A stretch of 54,935 nucleotides of DNA from positions 1 through 54,935 of the forward strand of contig SHYW01000018.1 of assembly GCA_009692615.1 (NCBI GenBank), given 5' to 3'. This document shows, in pieces, positions 2,907-39,447 of the stretch (position 1 is its first letter; the number at the start of each line of letters is the position of its first letter). The DNA is from Deltaproteobacteria bacterium. Its GTDB lineage: Bacteria; Desulfobacterota; Binatia; UBA9968. The translations under genes were made by a program, and so were the position numbers. Below the pieces are notes generated by a model. That model ran no database searches. It had not been told where the DNA came from and saw only the letters and a list, made by a program, of their open reading frames with translations.

Positions 2907-4046
2907 TTGGACTTCGGCTTCACCCCAGCACAGCAAGCGCTCATCGAGCGCGTCAGCGCCTTGGCCAAGGAGCGCATGGCGCCACGGGCGGCACAGTACG
3001 ACGCCGACTTCGCCATGCCGGCGGATGATCTCCTCGACATCCACCGCGAAGGCTGGCTGCTCGCCAACCTCGATAAAAAACGCGGTGGCTTGGGCTTCGG
3101 ACTTTACGGCGACGATCCGCTGAGCTTCTTTCTCATCGACGAGCATCTTGCTTACGGCAATCCATCCACGGCGCACTGCTTTCAAGTGCACAACAACGGC
3201 CTGATGATGATCGACGCCATGGCCAGCGACGAGCAAATTCAAAAGTGGATCGAACCGACGATAAACCGCGGCGCCTTACTCCCCGGCGCCGGCGCCGAAC
3301 CCTTGGGCGTGCCTCCAACAGCGGCGAAAAAAGTCGCCGGCGGTTATCTGCTCAGCGGCACCAAACATTACGCCACCAATGCAAGCATGGCGGAATGGCT
3401 CTGGATCGGCCGCATCGCGTCCGACTTCCATCCCAAGCCGATCATGTGCATGCTCCACAAAGACACGCCTGGTTTAACCATCGACACAGAAGCCTGGCGT
3501 CCCACCGGCATGCGCGCCTGCGTCAGCCCATGGCTGTACTTGAAAGATTGTTTCGTGCCGGAAGAAAACCTGCTCGGCCGTCCGGGGCAATTTCTCGACG
3601 AGAACTGGATGGGGAAAATAAACTTCGCCTTCACTGCGAATTATTTGGGCTCGGCGCGCGCCATGTACGACTGGGCGCTGGCCTACATTCGCGAACGCGG
3701 CGGTGGTAAAGACTCTTATCGACAATTGCGCTTCGGCGAGTTGAAAGCCATGCTCGACGCCGCCCGGCTGACCCTCTACACCGCCGTGCGCATGTTCAAA
3801 AAAAATTCCAACGAAGCGATGATCGCCGCCCACCAAGCGAAATGGCTGGCCAAAGAAATGTTAGAAAAGATGATCTGGAGCACGGCTGAAATCTGCGGCT
3901 CGACAGCGCTGTTCGTCAAACATCCGCTGGAGCGTTTCTACCGCGACATGCATTTGCACATGATGCACGGCCGCCACGACATCGCCGCCCAGATCGTCGG
4001 CGCGTCGGAACTCGGCGAGCCGTTCGATACCAATCGGAATCACTAG
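2907..4046 (+). CDS. Acyl-CoA dehydrogenase-family flavoprotein
   Basis: 379 residues, normal for the family, with the N-terminal helical domain (1-120), middle beta domain (about 120-230, 'GAGAEPLGVPPTAAKK' and 'GTKHYATN') and C-terminal helical domain (240-370). Start: the frame's only upstream option is TTG at 2907, giving MDFGFTPAQQ, which matches the typical N-terminus; no clear ribosome site is present. Where medium-chain dehydrogenases have the catalytic Glu in a 'YEGT' motif, this protein has MHGR (H354-G355). That points to an altered-reaction member, such as a flavin-dependent monooxygenase-like or isomerase-like protein, or to a base placed elsewhere. The substrate is unknown. Confidence 0.8.
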   Translation: MDFGFTPAQQALIERVSALAKERMAPRAAQYDADFAMPADDLLDIHREGWLLANLDKKRGGLGFGLYGDDPLSFFLIDEHLAYGNPSTAHCFQVHNNGLMMIDAMASDEQIQKWIEPTINRGALLPGAGAEPLGVPPTAAKKVAGGYLLSGTKHYATNASMAEWLWIGRIASDFHPKPIMCMLHKDTPGLTIDTEAWRPTGMRACVSPWLYLKDCFVPEENLLGRPGQFLDENWMGKINFAFTANYLGSARAMYDWALAYIRERGGGKDSYRQLRFGELKAMLDAARLTLYTAVRMFKKNSNEAMIAAHQAKWLAKEMLEKMIWSTAEICGSTALFVKHPLERFYRDMHLHMMHGRHDIAAQIVGASELGEPFDTNRNH

Positions 4047-4313: not shown

Positions 4314-5258
4314 TCACCGTCCGATCTCTTTCAGCGCCGCCCGCGCGAAGGAAAAATCTCTCACTTCGTCCAACGGCCGTTTCTTTTCGCCGATGCGCTC
4401 GATAATCGACTCGATCTCCGCGTCGGTCATGGTGCCGTCGCGATTCAGCGTCTTTAACTCGGCGTCATAGGAGTGTTCGGCGATGTCAATCGGTTGGGGC
4501 AGCCACTTGATCAGAGTTTGAATCGCGTCCTGGCGGTTTTCGACAATGTGATAGTGCGCCCGCAATAGCGCCTTGAGCGTGCGCCGGACAATCTGGGGAT
4601 TCTCCTTGATCAAACGATCCGAGGTGAGCATGCCGGCGGAAGGAAGGCCGATTTCCGGCGGTCCGAGCAGCGCGTTGTAACCCATTTTGCGCAGCATTAG
4701 ATCGTGCGGTGGCGCGACGCAGATCGCCTCCACCACGCCGCTGACTAGCGCCTGCATGCGCACCGGCCCATCGCCGATAGCGACGGCTTGTAACAGATTG
4801 GTGTTGAAGCCTTTGGCTTGGAGCATCTCTTCGGCGACCAATTGATCCGTGCCTTTGATCGTCGCCACGCCGATTTTTTTGCCTCGAAGCTGCTGCACGT
4901 CCTTGATCTCCGGCCGCACCATCACGTAGTAGGGCCCTTTCTTGATATGCACGAAGACCAGTTTCATTGGAAAACCCTGCAAGACGCCGCGAAACGTGCT
5001 GGTGAATGGTGTGGCGAAAGACACGTCGCCGTTGACCACGGCGGTGGCGCCGAGCCGCGGATTCATCTGAATGATCTCGACGTCCAAACCTTCGGCTTTG
5101 AAGAAACCTTTTTGCAGCGCCATATATTGCGGCAATGCCGAGCTGCTTCGGCTGGCGTAGGCGATACGCACTTTCGGCGGCGCTTCCGCGCTCAACGCCA
5201 TTGTCGCGATGCCAAGGATGCCGGTCAGAATGAAAACGATCGCGCCCTGAGTTTGCAT
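4314..5258 (-). CDS. ABC-type substrate-binding protein (NMT1/SsuA-like), paralog of 681-1640
   Basis: 314 residues with a signal peptide to about residue 24 (ending LSA/EAP). The mature part is collinear with the 681-1640 product: 'VRIAYASRSSSALPQ', 'FFKAEGLDVEIIQMNPRLGATA', 'HIKKGPYYVM', 'LRGKKIGVATIKGTDQLVAEE', 'EKKRPLDEVRDFSFARAALKE'. The pair clearly arose by duplication. AAGGAT lies upstream of the ATG. It is the last gene of a minus-strand run: amidohydrolase (7402-6311), binding protein (6221-5268), then this gene only nine bases downstream. The ligand is unknown and no transporter genes accompany it. Confidence 0.88.
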   Translation of the reverse strand: MQTQGAIVFILTGILGIATMALSAEAPPKVRIAYASRSSSALPQYMALQKGFFKAEGLDVEIIQMNPRLGATAVVNGDVSFATPFTSTFRGVLQGFPMKLVFVHIKKGPYYVMVRPEIKDVQQLRGKKIGVATIKGTDQLVAEEMLQAKGFNTNLLQAVAIGDGPVRMQALVSGVVEAICVAPPHDLMLRKMGYNALLGPPEIGLPSAGMLTSDRLIKENPQIVRRTLKALLRAHYHIVENRQDAIQTLIKWLPQPIDIAEHSYDAELKTLNRDGTMTDAEIESIIERIGEKKRPLDEVRDFSFARAALKEIGR

Positions 5259-21811: not shown

Positions 21812-21970
21812 CTTCGACAGGCTCAGGGCGATCGGGACGGCAAAGGGCGAAATTCGACAGAGGCAACTAAAGAGGCAAGGATATTCTTCACCACGAAGTT
21901 CACGACGGACACGAAGGGTTCGGAGGATTAAGACTCCGAACTTCGTGACCTTCGTGTCCTTCGTGGTGAA
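21812..21970. repeat. Two dispersed repeats: CCTTCGACAGGCTCAGGG piece and CACCACGAAG palindrome
   Basis: 21812-21830 is one arm of the palindrome found inside the MITE at 4043-4179. From 21887 TTCACCACGAAG is matched by CTTCGTGGTGAA ending at 21970 (perfect 12 bp), with inner CGGACACGAAGG/CCTTCGTGTCC and GTTCGGAG/CTCCGAAC pairs. It fills the gap between the thiamine-diphosphate enzyme and the CMD-family gene. Confidence 0.75.
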
Positions 21971-22011
21971 AACTTTCTGGTCAATCTGGTAACGCAAACT
22001 GAGGAGGTAAC

Positions 22012-33560: not shown

Positions 33561-34634
33561 ATGGCAGAATTCATCATCGACGCCGACGGCCATATAATGG
33601 AAGACCACAAGGACATCTTCGCCCACATCAAAGGCAACTTCGCCGAGATGAACTGGCACTCGACCTGGCCGATGTTCGACGCCGACGGCTGGCAGCGCGG
33701 CCTGGCGCGCAAGGGCAAACGCGAAGATCCCGACGCCGAGCGCTGGATAAAATTTCAAGACGAGAACGGCATCGACATGGCGGTACTCTACCCGACATCT
33801 GCGCTAGCATTGGGCATGATTCAACTGCCGGCGTGGGCGTCAGCGCTTGCTCAAGGATATAATGACTGGCTCTACGATCGCTTCATGACGCAGTCGCCAC
33901 GCTTGAAAGGCGTCGCCCTGCTCGCGCCGCAAGATCCCAAAGCCGCCGCGCTTGAACTGCGCCGCTGCGTCAAAGAACTTGGCTTCGTCGCCGGCCTGTT
34001 GCCGTCGGCGACCAACAACCGCACGCCGCTCTACGGCTCGCACGAGTTTCATGTCATCTACGATGAAGCGCAAAGACTCGACGTACCGCTGACCATCCAC
34101 GGCGGCGTCAGCCAAAATCTAGGCCTCGACCGCGTCGCCAGCTTTCTCGAAGCACATATGCTCGAACATCCTTTCGGCCTGTTTCTGCACATCACCAACA
34201 TGATGTTCCAAGGCGTGTTCCAAGAATTTCCCAAACTGCGCGTGGCTTATTTAGAAGCTGGCGCCGGCTGGGTGCCTTTCATGATGGATCGCATGGAAGA
34301 AGACTACGAAAAATTCGCTGCCCGCCTGGCGCCGAATTTAAAAAGTCCACCGAGCCACTTCTTCGAGAGCGGCAACATCTTCGTCACCATGGAAGTCGAA
34401 GAGCGCACCGCGCCCTACGTCGTCAAATTACTGCGCGACGACGTCATCATGTGGGCCTCCGACTTCCCCCACGAACGCGAACGCGACCAATTCGGCGGCG
34501 ACCTGCCGACATTAAAAGCACGCAAAGATTTGACGAACGAGTTCAAAAACAAAATGCTCTGCGATAACCCGGTAAAATTTTATCGCCTGAGCGAAGGCGA
34601 CATCGCCGCGGCGAGAAAGGCGAAGGGGAATTGA
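33561..34634 (+). CDS. Amidohydrolase_2-family hydrolase/decarboxylase
   Basis: 357 residues with TCGGAGGAACA before the ATG. Metal motifs 'IDADGHIMED' (D7/D9, H11), 'PLTIHGGVS' (metal His) and 'IMWASDFPHERE' (catalytic Asp). The arrangement and 'GAGWVPFMMDRMEEDYEK' are shared with the 39495-40538 product, so the two are paralogs. It closes the long plus-strand run next to the TIR-DnaB island. Substrate unknown, probably a carboxylic acid from the same catabolic route. Confidence 0.87.
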   Translation: MAEFIIDADGHIMEDHKDIFAHIKGNFAEMNWHSTWPMFDADGWQRGLARKGKREDPDAERWIKFQDENGIDMAVLYPTSALALGMIQLPAWASALAQGYNDWLYDRFMTQSPRLKGVALLAPQDPKAAALELRRCVKELGFVAGLLPSATNNRTPLYGSHEFHVIYDEAQRLDVPLTIHGGVSQNLGLDRVASFLEAHMLEHPFGLFLHITNMMFQGVFQEFPKLRVAYLEAGAGWVPFMMDRMEEDYEKFAARLAPNLKSPPSHFFESGNIFVTMEVEERTAPYVVKLLRDDVIMWASDFPHERERDQFGGDLPTLKARKDLTNEFKNKMLCDNPVKFYRLSEGDIAAARKAKGN

Positions 34635-34690: not shown

Positions 34691-36037
34691 TCAGTCCTCA
34701 TTTGTCTCCGACATTTCCAGAAAACTAGACGTTTCGGGTTGATATTGTGTTATTACAAGACCGGTAGGACCGTTTCTGTTTTTAGCGACGTCGATCTCCA
34801 AGACACCTGAGTAAATGGATCCAGGATGGTAAACTTCATCTCTATACAGGAAAAGTACTACATCCGCCTCTTGTTCTAGACTTCCGTTTTCCTGTAAATC
34901 TGCAAGTATGGGGCGTTTGTTTTTTCTCTGATCGGTTCTCGGCGACACACTGCAAGTGACTACCACTGGTACGCGGAGGTCCCTAGCCAACAACTTCAAG
35001 GCAAGTATGCTTTGGGAGGCCGTGTTGGAATCAGTAAACAAGAGTTGCTGCAAGCTATCGATTATAACCAACTGAATCTGCTTCTCGTCCCTGAGAGATT
35101 TCGCCCGCTCTACAATATCGGTGACGGTTATTCGTGGTGAATCGTCAATGTAGATAGGTGCTTCCATAAGCTTGCCGAACGCAAGCGCCATCTTTGGAAA
35201 ATCTTTCTCGCCAAGATATCCTCTCCACATATGATTTGAATTCACATCACTCACCGCTGCAACCATCCGCTGCACTATTTTCTGCACCGGGTTTTGCATA
35301 CTATAAAATGCAACCGCTAGCCCACGTTCAACCGCTGCCTTTATAGTCAGACGGAGCACGATATCGCTCTTTCCCATTGACGGACGTCCCGCAATTACCA
35401 GCAACTCGGACGCACGTAAGCCGCCTAATAGGTAATCAAGATCAGTGATCCCTGTTGGAATTCCATCACAGAAAACACTCGGGGTTGTGTTGGCTGAGTA
35501 TACTGCTTCTAATCGTTTCAGTTCTCCTCCCAAAACGTCACGTAATGAAGTCAACGTCGTAGTCGCATTGTCCCTAAACTTTATCTCCTGAATCTCCTGA
35601 ATCGCGTTTTTGATTCCTTTTTCAACATCTAGCCAAGCCTCATCGTGATTTTTCCAAGACATCACTGGGACGGCGTCTTTTGGAAGGGCCTGAAGTCTAG
35701 CAAACGGCGCATCACTCCAATCAACTGCTCGCACAATAATAGGAACAACTTTAATCTCGTTACGTTCTTGGCGTTCCATAGCTCGGGCGAGCTCTTTACC
35801 GTAGCAGTATTCAGAGGCCATAAAGTCAGCACTCACCAACAAAAGAATGATATCGGCTTCATCGAGATGACTATCAATCGTAGCGTCCCAGTCTTGTCCT
35901 GCAACGATACGGCGGTCATGCCACGTCTTAACGAGGCCCTTTCTTTGAAGCAGAGCTAAGTGAGTATCTAACTGCTCCTTTAACACCTCGTCTTTGTGAG
36001 AATAACTGTAGAAAATTGTTATCGGCATTGTTGGCAT
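34691..36037 (-). CDS. TIR domain fused to DnaB-type helicase/ATPase domain (candidate defence protein)
   Basis: 448 residues. Residues 5-104 are a TIR domain ('ITIFYSYSHKDEVLKEQL', 'DEADIILLLVSADFMAS', 'YCYGKELARAMERQ'); E82 in YCxxKEL is at the position of the catalytic Glu of NAD-cleaving TIRs. A linker to about 185 leads into a DnaB C-terminal RecA fold: 'GIPTGITDLDYLLGG', Walker A GRPSMGKS (217-224), Walker B VIIDS, and the H4 region 'RPILADLQENGSLEQEADVV'. The DnaB N-terminal domain is absent and the TIR takes its place. In DnaB the strand after Walker A ends SLEMP with a catalytic Glu; here it is SMQNP (Q248), and the H3 'LSQL' Gln is also lost, so ATP may be bound more than hydrolysed. 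A+T content is visibly higher than in neighbours. No signal peptide. Start: ATG 36037 or 36028. Confidence 0.88.
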   Translation of the reverse strand: MPTMPITIFYSYSHKDEVLKEQLDTHLALLQRKGLVKTWHDRRIVAGQDWDATIDSHLDEADIILLLVSADFMASEYCYGKELARAMERQERNEIKVVPIIVRAVDWSDAPFARLQALPKDAVPVMSWKNHDEAWLDVEKGIKNAIQEIQEIKFRDNATTTLTSLRDVLGGELKRLEAVYSANTTPSVFCDGIPTGITDLDYLLGGLRASELLVIAGRPSMGKSDIVLRLTIKAAVERGLAVAFYSMQNPVQKIVQRMVAAVSDVNSNHMWRGYLGEKDFPKMALAFGKLMEAPIYIDDSPRITVTDIVERAKSLRDEKQIQLVIIDSLQQLLFTDSNTASQSILALKLLARDLRVPVVVTCSVSPRTDQRKNKRPILADLQENGSLEQEADVVLFLYRDEVYHPGSIYSGVLEIDVAKNRNGPTGLVITQYQPETSSFLEMSETNED

Positions 36038-36095
36038 CCGTCACCACCCTGAATTAGGAAACAACTACAAGTTTTACAAGGGTATAGCCGAAACT

Positions 36096-36235
36096 CTACC
36101 GCCCCATTAACTTCTGCACAAACCCTTCCTCTTCCAGTTTCTTCAAGTACCTATCTGTGAGGAAATTCTTCGCGTCAATTTCGCGACTTGGGTTCCGCTG
36201 CGACCAATGGGTCGACCACGGCTTGCATGGCGCTC
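36096..36235 (-). pseudogene. Binding-protein gene remnant (3' end, copy of 38461-39447)
   Basis: The minus strand here matches the last 45 or so codons of the 38461-39447 gene: 'AMQAVVDPLVAAEPK' in one frame, then after a two-base deletion near 36180-36184, 'IDAKNFLTDRYLKKLEEEGF' and 'VQKLMGR*' in another. There is no start and the frame is shifted, so it cannot make protein. It lies just beyond the 5' end of the TIR-DnaB gene. Confidence 0.85.
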
Positions 36236-36296
36236 CCGCACAGTTATGGCAGTATCGGGGCCAGGCTCTGCAAACTTGCAATTAACGACTGACGGC

Positions 36297-36516
36297 TTAT
36301 TTGAGACTCACACCTTGCGCTGCGAAAACCCTGTCGATAAAACCGGATTCATTCAGCTTGCGCATGATGCGCGCGGCGATCACTTCTTCGGTTTTAACTT
36401 CGCCGATTTTTGGATTGCGCGGTTTCAGCATTCTTTGCACGTTGCGCAAGCCTTCCAGCGATGGGAACCGTTTGCGGTCGACGCCTTTGAATAAATCTTG
36501 ACAACCTTCCTCGGCC
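36297..36516 (-). pseudogene. Binding-protein gene remnant (3' end, copy of 37360-38385)
   Basis: An open but startless minus-strand stretch corresponding to the last 73 codons of the 37360-38385 product: 'EEGCQDLFKGVDRKRFPSLEG', 'LRNVQRMLKPRNPKIGEV', 'RIMRKLNESGFIDRVFAAQG', 'VSLK*'. Homology stops abruptly near 36516, where unrelated sequence leading to the PIN gene begins. The break looks like an insertion or deletion junction. Confidence 0.85.
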
Positions 36517-36578
36517 TCATGGTTTTTATCACCATGGAATTATCGGGAGAAGCGAAATCAAAGGGTTCTGGCGACGTC

Positions 36579-37010
36579 TCATTTGTGAACAACGTCTGAC
36601 AGCACCAGAAGCGGAATAAGTCGGCGGCCCTTTTGCCGGTAAATCTGGAAATCGGAATCGAGAGTAAACAGTGTCGCCGAGGGAGTGAGTTCGACCAATC
36701 TCACAAGACAAGCATCCGCTAGGGACATCGGCACGTTGGCGTACCGGCGAATCAAGTTCGTAACCGAGTGGGCTTCATTGTCGAACAGCGGAGCCACGCT
36801 TAGCACCCCACGCTCGACCAGTTGAGTGACGGCACTTGTATCCGCGCCGGCGCGGGCAATTAAGAAGCATGACTCAGTCAGAACTGCTGCACAGGTTTGC
36901 AGCGGTGGTCGAAGGCGGGCGAACTGGGCTTTGGCCTAGGAATGATACTGATCGTCGGCGTCGAGCAACGCCACGATCGGACCGGTATCAACGATGACGC
37001 TTGCTGCCAC
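36579..37010 (-). pseudogene. PIN-domain toxin with in-frame amber stop
   Basis: From GTG at 37010 the minus strand reads VAASVIVDTGPIVALLDADD then QYHS, a TAG at 36938-36936 (codon 25), and then continues in frame for 118 codons to the stop at 36579: 'AKAQFARLRPPLQTC', 'AAVLTESCFLI', 'VPMSLADACLVRL', 'LFTLDSDFQIYR'. D8, the later E (in 'LTESCF'), D in 'LADACL' and D in 'LDSDF' are the PIN acidic set. The stop falls where PIN toxins often have Trp in 'H.WA', consistent with TGG to TAG. It overlaps the RHH antitoxin gene by 23 bases. A short ORF after the stop (GTG at 36806) would lack the first catalytic Asp. Confidence 0.8.
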
Positions 37011-37263
37011 GGCGACCGTTGTCAGCGACTATATCTTGGAGCAGCTTTTTGTTGGTCGAGAGATCGCGCCGCCCGCTGCGAACCGATCCCACTAAGTTGC
37101 CAGCTAGATCCGCGCAATTCGCCTGCCGCCGGCTCGCCGGACGAGCCAATACAAGCTCTAGCGATTCGCGCACAATCGTCGACAGGGAGACGTTACGTCT
37201 CTGTGCCTCTTGGGCAACCTTGGCTCGCAATTCTTGCGGAAGCTTGACGGACATTAATTCCAT
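36988..37263 (-). CDS. Ribbon-helix-helix (CopG-like) antitoxin
   Basis: 91 residues. 'ELMSVKLPQELRAKVAQEAQRRNVSLSTIVRESLELVLA' is a ribbon-helix-helix DNA-binding domain with the strand, two helices and Ser/Thr helix cap in order; the basic C-terminal tail would contact the toxin. ATG at 37263 or 37254; neither has a strong ribosome site. It is the antitoxin of the PIN gene that overlaps its 3' end, though that toxin is interrupted. Persisting antitoxin could still repress its own promoter. Confidence 0.75.
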   Translation of the reverse strand: MELMSVKLPQELRAKVAQEAQRRNVSLSTIVRESLELVLARPASRRQANCADLAGNLVGSVRSGRRDLSTNKKLLQDIVADNGRRGSKRHR

Positions 37264-37281: not shown

Positions 37282-37359
37282 ATCGACACCGTTGACAATA
37301 CCACAACCAGCCCGGCATTGGCACGACGCCCCGTGATCTCGCCATTGACGATTGACCGC

Positions 37360-38385
37360 TCATTTCAAACTCACCCCCTGCGCCGCGTAAGCCCGATCGA
37401 TAAACCCGGACTCATCCAGCTTGCGCATGATGCGCCCATCTATCACTTCCTCGGCCTTGATCTCGCCGATCTTAGGATTACGGGTTTTCAGTATTCGTTG
37501 GACGTTGCGCAGGCCGTCCAGCGACGGGAACGGTTTGCGGTCGACGCCTTTTAGCAAATCTTGATAGCCTTCCTCGGCGTCGTTGGCGTTAGCTTTAAGC
37601 CGCTTCATGATGGTTTTGATAACCACTGCTTTGTTTTTCGGCGCTACGGAAAAGGCCAGCGATTCGATCTCCGCCTTGAGATAGCTTTCGACAATGTCCG
37701 GGCGTTGGTTGAGAAACGTGGTAGGCACCACCATCGCCTGGCCGACGGTGCGTTGCGGCAGGTTGGCGGATTCGCCGAGGACGGTGAAACCTTTTGCCCG
37801 CAGATGTTTGCTGAAGACGCCGTCGAGCGCGGCGATATCGGCGATGCCGCTCTCGACCGCTTGCATCATGATCGGCTGATCGCCCAACACCTGCATGTTG
37901 ATCTGATCGCGGGTTTGATCGAGGCCGAAATGTTCGAGCCAAAAGAGCACGCCCATCCAGCCGGTGCCGCCGATGCTGTTGAGCGCGATCTTTTTGCCGC
38001 GCATATCTTCCGGCCGCTTAATGTTGGGCCGGGCGATCAAGTCATATGTGTTGCGGCTGGAAAACGTCGCGACGATTTTGAAATCATGACCGGCGCCGAT
38101 CGCCGCCAGCGTCGCGCTGCCGCCGCTGCGGCCGAACTGCAAGTCTCCCGAAGCCATGCCGGCGACCAGCAGCGGCGCGCCGCGCATGTAAACTTGTTCG
38201 GCTTGGAGGCCGTTACGCGCGAGAAAGCCCTGCTCCTCGGCGATCCACAATGGCACCACCCGGCCATTGATCGCCGCGTAACCGAGCACCACCTTGGTCA
38301 GCGGCGTTGCGGCGAACGCGGGAGCGAGGGCCAGGGCGAGTAACCAGAGACACGCGGCATAGAAAAACAAAGTCCTGATCAACAT
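37360..38385 (-). CDS. ABC-type substrate-binding protein (NMT1-like), paralog of 31268-32299
   Basis: 341 residues. Signal peptide to about residue 25 (ending AFA/AT). 'VVPLWIAEEQGFLARNGLQAEQVYMRGAP', 'MRGKKIALNSIGGTGWMGVLFWLEHFGLD', 'RIMRKLDESGFIDRAYAAQG' and VSLK at the end; the tail extends eight residues past the usual GFI..LY end. GGAGAATTAC precedes the ATG. It is third in a minus-strand run after an amidohydrolase and another binding protein. A truncated copy of its 3' end is at 36297-36516. Confidence 0.88.
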   Translation of the reverse strand: MLIRTLFFYAACLWLLALALAPAFAATPLTKVVLGYAAINGRVVPLWIAEEQGFLARNGLQAEQVYMRGAPLLVAGMASGDLQFGRSGGSATLAAIGAGHDFKIVATFSSRNTYDLIARPNIKRPEDMRGKKIALNSIGGTGWMGVLFWLEHFGLDQTRDQINMQVLGDQPIMMQAVESGIADIAALDGVFSKHLRAKGFTVLGESANLPQRTVGQAMVVPTTFLNQRPDIVESYLKAEIESLAFSVAPKNKAVVIKTIMKRLKANANDAEEGYQDLLKGVDRKPFPSLDGLRNVQRILKTRNPKIGEIKAEEVIDGRIMRKLDESGFIDRAYAAQGVSLK

Positions 38386-38394
38386 TTGTAATTC

Positions 38395-38430
38395 TCCGAA
38401 CTTCGCGCCTTTGCGCCTTTGCGGGAGATC
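38395..38430. repeat. Dispersed repeat, TTTGCGCCTTTGCGGGAGA type
   Basis: CCGAACTTCGCGCCTTTGCG then CCTTTGCGGGAGATC. Half of the palindrome that is complete at 52619-52688; a further half copy is at 39461-39490. Both lie in the short gaps of the same minus-strand binding-protein run. Confidence 0.65.
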
Positions 38431-38460
38431 ATCCGGTCCTTAAACCCAACATTGTTTCAT

Positions 38461-39447
38461 CTACCTCGCCATCAACTTCTGCACGAAGCCCTCTTCTTCA
38501 AGCTTCTTCAAATAGCGGTCGCTGATAAAATTCTTCGCGTCGATCTTGCCGAGCTTCGGTTCGGCGGCGACCAACGGATCGACCACGGCCTGCATGGCGC
38601 TCACCGACGGATACGGAATGTCGGGGATTTTGTTTTTGTTGTAATCGTAGGCCTCGCGCAACAACTCTTGATCGTTGACGCGGCTGAACTGCGCCAGCGC
38701 TTTGAGCGTATATTCCGGCTCGGTTTTGAAAATCTTGATCGCTTCGACGTAGGCGCGCATGAAACTCAATATCCGGCCGTCATTTTTCTGCATCACTTTG
38801 GCGCTGCCGCACATCCCGGTGTTGAAGTAGGGAATACCGAGCGCAAAGGCGTCCGCCAGCACGTTGAAGTTGAATTTCTTCGCCACCGATCCGAACGGCG
38901 CGTTGAAGACCGATCCGTCGATGCTGCCGGCGCGCAGCGCCGCGAGCCGTTCCGGTTCGTTGCCGATTTGCAGAATCGTCACATCTTTGGGATCGGTGCC
39001 GACTCGTCGCAACAACGTGCGCAAACCGAAATCCGCCGACGACGCGAAGCGGCTGATCGCGAAGCGTTTGCCTTTGAGATCAGCAGTGTTCTTGATGTCC
39101 GGGCGGGTCACCAATTGATAACCCATGCGATCGTCGGTCATGGCGATATAAGTGATATCGGCGCCGCGCAGATTGGCGGCCACGCCTGGCGGGCCGGTCA
39201 ACTGGCCCAAGTCGATATCGCCGGACACCATCGCTTGAATCGCCGTGCTGCCGCCGGGAATATAAACCACCACGGAAGACAAGCCGTACTTGGCATACAA
39301 GCCGCGCTTCTCGGCGATCGAAACCAACAGCGCATGCGGGTTGAGCGAACTGTAAGCGATGCGAATGGTGTCGGCCCCGTGGGCTAAACCAGCGCAAACC
39401 GCGCAGAATAAACATACGGAAATGATTCTCGTGATTTTCATGTTCAT
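38461..39447 (-). CDS. ABC-type substrate-binding protein (NMT1-like)
   Basis: 328 residues; ATG at 39447 or the second Met (39441). Signal peptide to about residue 24 (ending AHG/AD). 'HALLVSIAEKRGLYAKYGLSSVVVYIPGGSTA', 'LKGKRFAISRFASSADFGLRTLLRRVGTDPKDVTILQIGNEPERL', 'YLKKLEEEGFVQKLMAR'. It lies 47 bases after the amidohydrolase gene and 75 before the next binding protein. A frameshifted 3' copy is at 36096-36235. Ligand unknown. Confidence 0.88.
   Translation of the reverse strand: MNMKITRIISVCLFCAVCAGLAHGADTIRIAYSSLNPHALLVSIAEKRGLYAKYGLSSVVVYIPGGSTAIQAMVSGDIDLGQLTGPPGVAANLRGADITYIAMTDDRMGYQLVTRPDIKNTADLKGKRFAISRFASSADFGLRTLLRRVGTDPKDVTILQIGNEPERLAALRAGSIDGSVFNAPFGSVAKKFNFNVLADAFALGIPYFNTGMCGSAKVMQKNDGRILSFMRAYVEAIKIFKTEPEYTLKALAQFSRVNDQELLREAYDYNKNKIPDIPYPSVSAMQAVVDPLVAAEPKLGKIDAKNFISDRYLKKLEEEGFVQKLMAR

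Follow-up and report, generated by a model that had tools for sequence, protein, structure and literature searches.

TIR NADases are known effectors, and some bacterial TIRs have non-defence roles. Among the closest described parallels to the protein reported here is SpbK, a one-gene TIR effector in which the other domain takes the trigger. Its own N-terminal sensor binds the phage portal, a ring-shaped phage component; in SpbK and others, an active site is made by two TIRs together, and a partner domain that clusters the TIRs switches them on (PMC12847820). Ring ATPases can also scaffold effectors, as in HerA-DUF4297 (PMC11291478) and SIR2-HerA, where a RecA-like ring holds a nuclease or an NADase. 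These HerA systems comprise two separate proteins, an active HerA-family ATPase and a DUF4297 or SIR2 effector. Here we describe a protein in which a TIR domain is joined to the C-terminal domain of DnaB, encoded in a stretch of 54,935 nucleotides from a Deltaproteobacteria bacterium assembly (the window). Unlike in SpbK, the TIR is followed, on its C-terminal side, by a second domain that is a degenerate version of the DnaB C-terminal domain. Unlike the HerA systems, it is a single chain of the DnaB family with a TIR effector and a lost catalytic Glu, and the HerA family is not among the Pfam matches of the window protein. On balance, we favour the view that this is a one-gene NAD-depleting immune protein, a TIR NADase carried by a DnaB pseudo-helicase.

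The fusion gene (Table 1) begins with ATG and contains no internal stops. Pfam places TIR_2 at residues 8–116 (E 6e-15) and DnaB_C at residues 192–439 (E 5e-67), both well over the cut-off; PF00772, the DnaB N-terminal domain, gave no match in the protein or its genome. The TIR stands in place of the DnaB N-terminal domain and is followed by the linker helix and then the motor domain as usual, with an H4 stretch (KNRNGPTG) in the latter. A full-length AlphaFold2 model, built on an 11-row alignment, has a pLDDT of 83 and consists of the TIR domain, helix 165–181 and the RecA-like domain. Residues 164–446 superpose on DnaB 4esv with Z 37.8 and rmsd 4.2 over 273 residues (Foldseek, VIA-align). 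As DnaB filled the fold list of the full-length model, the TIR was modelled separately, giving a pLDDT of 91 and matches to RPP1-type, RUN1, SPARTA, AbTir and SARM1 TIRs (Z 13–16 over ∼120–139 residues), the best being RPP1-type, RUN1 and SPARTA (Z about 15–16). With a one-residue insertion, Glu82 aligns to the WCxxEL glutamate of solved TIRs; like the TIR catalytic Glu, it lies in the helix that follows strand four.

Table 1. Features of the fusion gene and of the flanking DNA (window coordinates)
Feature	Position	Strand	Basis
TIR-DnaB fusion gene, 448 aa	34691..36037	−	ORF reading, Pfam, at least 10 full-length homologues
TIR domain, residues 6–150	35588..36022	−	Pfam TIR_2, AlphaFold2, invariant columns
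Glu82, predicted TIR catalytic glutamate	35792..35794	−	invariance, alignment to solved TIRs
Helix 165–181, DnaB linker helix equivalent	35495..35545	−	model helix, alignment with canonical DnaB
DnaB C-terminal RecA-like domain, residues 192–439	34721..35464	−	Pfam DnaB_C, Z 37.8 to 4esv
Walker A GRPSMGKS, residues 217–224, intact	35366..35389	−	alignment
Gln248 at the DnaB catalytic Glu site (FSLEM)	35294..35296	−	alignment, phmmer
Walker B Asp327	35057..35059	−	alignment; retained 11/11
Gln382 replacing the DNA-contact Arg of DLRESG (BstDnaB R381)	34892..34894	−	alignment
Lys419 and Arg421, Lys and Arg finger equivalents	34775..34783	−	alignment
Flanking amidohydrolase gene (name by eye)	33561..34634	+	left border of variable spot
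Remnants of two paralogous substrate-binding-protein genes, beside fusion gene	36095..36518	−	internal matches, G011 matches
VapBC-like pair, common to window and G011	36579..37263	−	domain matches

A preliminary description, made from the DNA letters, had proposed a 448-residue fusion of TIR and DnaB RecA-like domains, with Glu82 as the catalytic-type residue, a Walker A GRPSMGKS, an H4 region and the TIR sitting where DnaB normally has its N-terminal domain. The intact ORF, the Pfam matches, the models and their fold matches, and the alignments with solved TIRs and canonical DnaB bear all of this out. Three features were absent from that description: the minus strand, Gln248 at the site of the FSLEM Glu and the missing Arg of DLRESG.

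Residues 7–153 match the PADLOC model for ThsB1, PDLC00420, with 202 bits, and automatic tools may for that reason call a TIR-DnaB protein ThsB. Unlike in ThsB, the remainder is DnaB, and the ThsB1 profile was matched over positions 3–149 of 319 only. As to Thoeris, no ThsA-like gene was seen near the window gene; a STALD search for ThsA gave no match in the 11 TIR-DnaB genomes, and control genomes were likewise without a match. The likeness to DnaB extends over the linker helix and the RecA-like domain: TIGR00665, the NCBIfam DnaB equivalog, matches residues 137–443 with E 5e-79 and 266 bits, which falls short of the 385-bit cut-off. What separates the protein from DnaB is the TIR in place of the N-terminal domain and the loss of the catalytic Glu and the DNA-contact Arg. 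A third likeness is to TIR-NLR, TIR-Roc-COR and TIR-NB-ARC proteins, for many bacteria carry closely related TIR modules (45–61% identity) joined to Roc-COR, NB-ARC, TPR and other domains. One such protein (L028, on G014:C167) carries the same module inside ∼1200 residues, flanked, as judged by eye, by a GTPase-like/COR-like region on one side and a metallophosphoesterase-like region on the other. In TIR-DnaB, by contrast, the partner is an SF4/RecA DnaB domain, with no STAND or Roc-COR NTPase and no separate repeat sensor; NB-ARC and NACHT had no Pfam match in the window protein. The preliminary description gave no named system for the fusion, and neither a named system nor any description of a TIR-DnaB fusion came up in a literature search that covered few subscription journals. 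The TIR-domain survey PMC7075850 does not mention DnaB, and we found no earlier description of a replicative-helicase domain as the partner of a TIR NADase.

A search for proteins with the same domain order, as the preliminary description had proposed, recovered at least 10 full-length homologues beyond the window protein, in scattered bacteria. These data indicate that TIR-DnaB is a rare but conserved family, and chance or mis-assembly as the origin of the fusion is ruled out by the identical domain order of these homologues. Two of them (40–41% identity) came from 395 sampled genomes of the window's phylum. A genome contig scan added at least eight more, from a Burkholderiales MAG, Shewanella salipaludis, Marinobacter iranensis, Methylophaga, Cellvibrio, Massilia, Caballeronia arationis and Luteimonas endophytica. 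The Burkholderiales protein (L116, 707–2455) has about 130 additional C-terminal residues. In one family relative (L010), a contig end truncates the copy, which shows 57% identity. No other TIR-DnaB was found in 148 genomes of the class, and the Burkholderiales MAG was the only one besides the seed in 399 genomes of one order. In 369 genomes of another class, a profile scan gave 288 matches; among the matches listed there was no TIR-DnaB besides the seed, and all those outside the seed genome covered the DnaB part only. The plasmid, phage and viral collections gave plain DnaB-type matches only, with no TIR-DnaB among the matches listed; one unannotated phage record, MT835537, aligns over residues 71–441 at 28%.

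In a tree, a supported branch (96/98) separates the DnaB parts of all twelve proteins from host and viral DnaBs, with the proviso that the TIR-DnaB branches are very long and long-branch attraction is possible. In a quick tree the TIR parts group likewise, the Luteimonas protein excepted. The simplest reading is that the family arose once and then spread.

The two halves of the protein differ sharply in conservation. We compared residues in 11 TIR-DnaBs with those in 14 canonical DnaBs from the same bacterial family. Glu82 is invariant in the 11 (and in 47 of 47 wider TIR rows), and 31 of the 150 TIR columns are invariant among these homologues. Mean pairwise identity is 52% for the TIR part versus 33% for the DnaB part, and the TIR value is the higher one in 55 of 55 pairs; for canonical DnaB domains, taken from a similar set of hosts, the average is 61%. 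DnaB belongs to the P-loop NTPase division defined by a catalytic Glu (PMC8421360). This residue, the FSLEM glutamate, occurs in 14/14 canonical DnaBs and 0/11 TIR-DnaBs, which have Q, R, T, N or K instead, and phmmer pairs Gln248 of the window protein with the catalytic Glu of solved DnaBs. The titles of stalled T7 and T4 helicase structures name E343Q and E227Q, which we take to be the same position as the DnaB catalytic Glu, and the natural Glu-to-Gln change would by this analogy resemble laboratory mutants that stall related ring helicases. The DNA-contact Arg is likewise missing in 11/11, and the H3 Gln in 9/11. In BstDnaB it is the side chain of R381 that contacts DNA, and the fingers of HpDnaB are K444/R446 (PMC8421360). 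The Lys finger is retained in 10 of the 11 TIR-DnaBs and the Arg finger in three (missing in eight), both being present in the window protein. Walker A is intact in most members and broken, with its Lys gone, in the Cellvibrio (L120) and Luteimonas (L123) proteins, so ATP binding is not essential in every member.

The main new result is that the TIR half is strongly conserved and the DnaB half is degenerate, a pattern that fits an enzyme under constraint coupled to a non-motor partner that changes fast. Because the residues for ATP hydrolysis and for gripping ssDNA are missing in all 11 proteins, the helicase half is probably not a motor and is probably instead a sensor or decoy that forms rings and so brings TIRs together. 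The preliminary description had proposed that an active DnaB-like ring senses a replication intermediate; the losses point away from this and toward a pseudo-helicase scaffold or decoy. We regard as unlikely the related reading in which an active or DNA-engaging ring loads onto invader ssDNA or forks and so switches on the TIR. The window protein does keep Walker A, Walker B and both fingers, and its RecA fold is close to that of DnaB; nevertheless, the losses of the catalytic Glu, the DNA-contact Arg and the H3 Gln, the absence of the Walker A Lys in two members and a divergence far above that of canonical DnaB argue against it.

In the window's own assembly (G000, 98.7% complete), neither a canonical DnaB nor a DnaB N-terminal domain was found. 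This is the observation on which a role in replication, perhaps as the working helicase of that genome, would rest. However, canonical DnaB (345–385 bits) is present in 10/10 genomes with other full-length members and in three of four congeners, the fourth being only 67% complete. G000 also lacks any recognisable counterpart of the congener's dnaB region, and because the flanks of dnaB are absent too, an assembly gap is the likely explanation for the missing gene. With the catalytic residues missing as well, we consider a replication role extremely improbable; the comparison indicates that TIR-DnaB is not the cell's helicase. In the same assembly, contig C156 (L201, 5938–9172) carries a second radA and the start of a second bioF-like gene (names by eye), adjoining an integrase and a large primase-like gene (also by eye), and contig C9 holds another radA/bioF pair. 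The two pairs may reflect duplication, a mobile element or a strain mixture.

The fusion gene has a GC content of 0.463 and a GC3 of 0.459, compared to 0.569–0.591 and 0.715–0.749 in the flanking genes. The congener G011 carries the flanking genes at 83–90% DNA identity, including the syntenic amidohydrolase gene (90% identical, on G011:C192), and lacks TIR-DnaB; an insert at the same place holds toxin-antitoxin genes (ParE/Phd, PIN). A second congener, G010, has isocitrate lyase and malate synthase there. Given the foreign base composition and the absence at the syntenic congener locus, the gene looks acquired, and the spot in which it lies is variable. On the other side of the gene, the substrate-binding-protein remnants are recognised by internal matches (36275–36518 to 37338–37581 at 81%; 36095–36134 to 38460–38499). 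The VapBC-like pair beyond them consists of a CopG-type antitoxin (36988–37263) and a PIN toxin whose frame (36579–36980) is broken in the window and intact in G011. On G011:C192 (L255), 3373–3589 and 4314–4485 are copies of the amidohydrolase 3′ end, 87% and 82% identical to the window's, that adjoin the toxin-antitoxin genes carried there, as though inserts arrived with a copy of the end of this gene. Two short sequences of the window, 38395–38437 (∼40 bp) and 21888–21977 (∼80 bp), recur on dozens of G000 contigs, like dispersed palindromic repeats; the 80-bp one matches both strands and the 40-bp one is also found in the genus.

The fusion gene sits among broken genes (36095–36935), which raises the question of whether it is itself a decayed relic with no present function. 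Its ORF is intact, however, and the TIR part is strongly constrained in all homologues, making this reading very unlikely.

The preliminary description had asked whether homologues cluster in defence islands, and here the outcome was mixed. Two relatives of 10 are clearly linked to defence and a third possibly so. In Massilia, a DRT5 reverse transcriptase (736 bits) and a protein kinase directly precede TIR-DnaB. In Cellvibrio, a compact cluster of three different ThsB-like TIR genes and a SLOG LD_cluster3 gene (L120, 7193–9940) lies directly before it; on its far side are large recombinase-like genes, only one of which has a weak integrase match. In Caballeronia, a DarG-like macrodomain gene adjoins TIR-DnaB. 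For the other seven, the neighbours scanned or read include no clear known defence gene. The same holds for the window gene, and the window is not a defence island. The findings that might have told against the original proposal, namely loss of the TIR acidic residue, no defence link at all or folds other than TIR and RecA-like, were each looked for and not encountered.

The solitary setting of most TIR-DnaB loci, together with the occurrence of related TIR modules (45–61% identity) on Roc-COR, NB-ARC, TPR and other domains, would suit a general stress or cell-death hub of the NLR type, with the RecA-like domain as a nucleotide-gated oligomerisation module responding to non-phage cues. Set against this are the two or three homologues in defence loci and a patchy distribution, which is sporadic and, judging from the genomes scanned, horizontally mobile. 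We accordingly give the hub reading little weight.

Returning to the NAD-depleting immune protein that we favour, the TIR domain is predicted to destroy cellular NAD, and defence by NAD depletion is its likely role. In the mechanism that we envisage, the RecA-like domain would still bind ATP in most members, the window protein included, and such domains could form rings without translocation, with the TIRs occupying the place of the DnaB N-terminal collar. Assembly or capture of the ring would fall, most plausibly, to phage replication proteins with affinity for DnaB C-terminal domains, such as helicase loaders or replisome parts; these are favoured as the trigger because the C-terminal part has been retained and the N-terminal domain is gone. 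Neighbouring TIRs would then pair, composite active sites would form, NAD would be destroyed and the infection would be aborted. More tentatively, the hydrolysis-dead ring may be a decoy of the replicative helicase, which phage helicase loaders or replisome proteins assemble instead, switching on the TIR NADase.

The systematic loss of helicase catalytic residues alongside an intact TIR gives a clear and testable indication that a pseudo-enzyme has become a sensor. Should the decoy reading be true, it would explain a protein that tools now file as ThsB or DnaB, and it would mean that bacteria guard the helicase-loading step hijacked by phages. Such a guard of the start of DNA replication would, to our knowledge, be unlike any defence system known.
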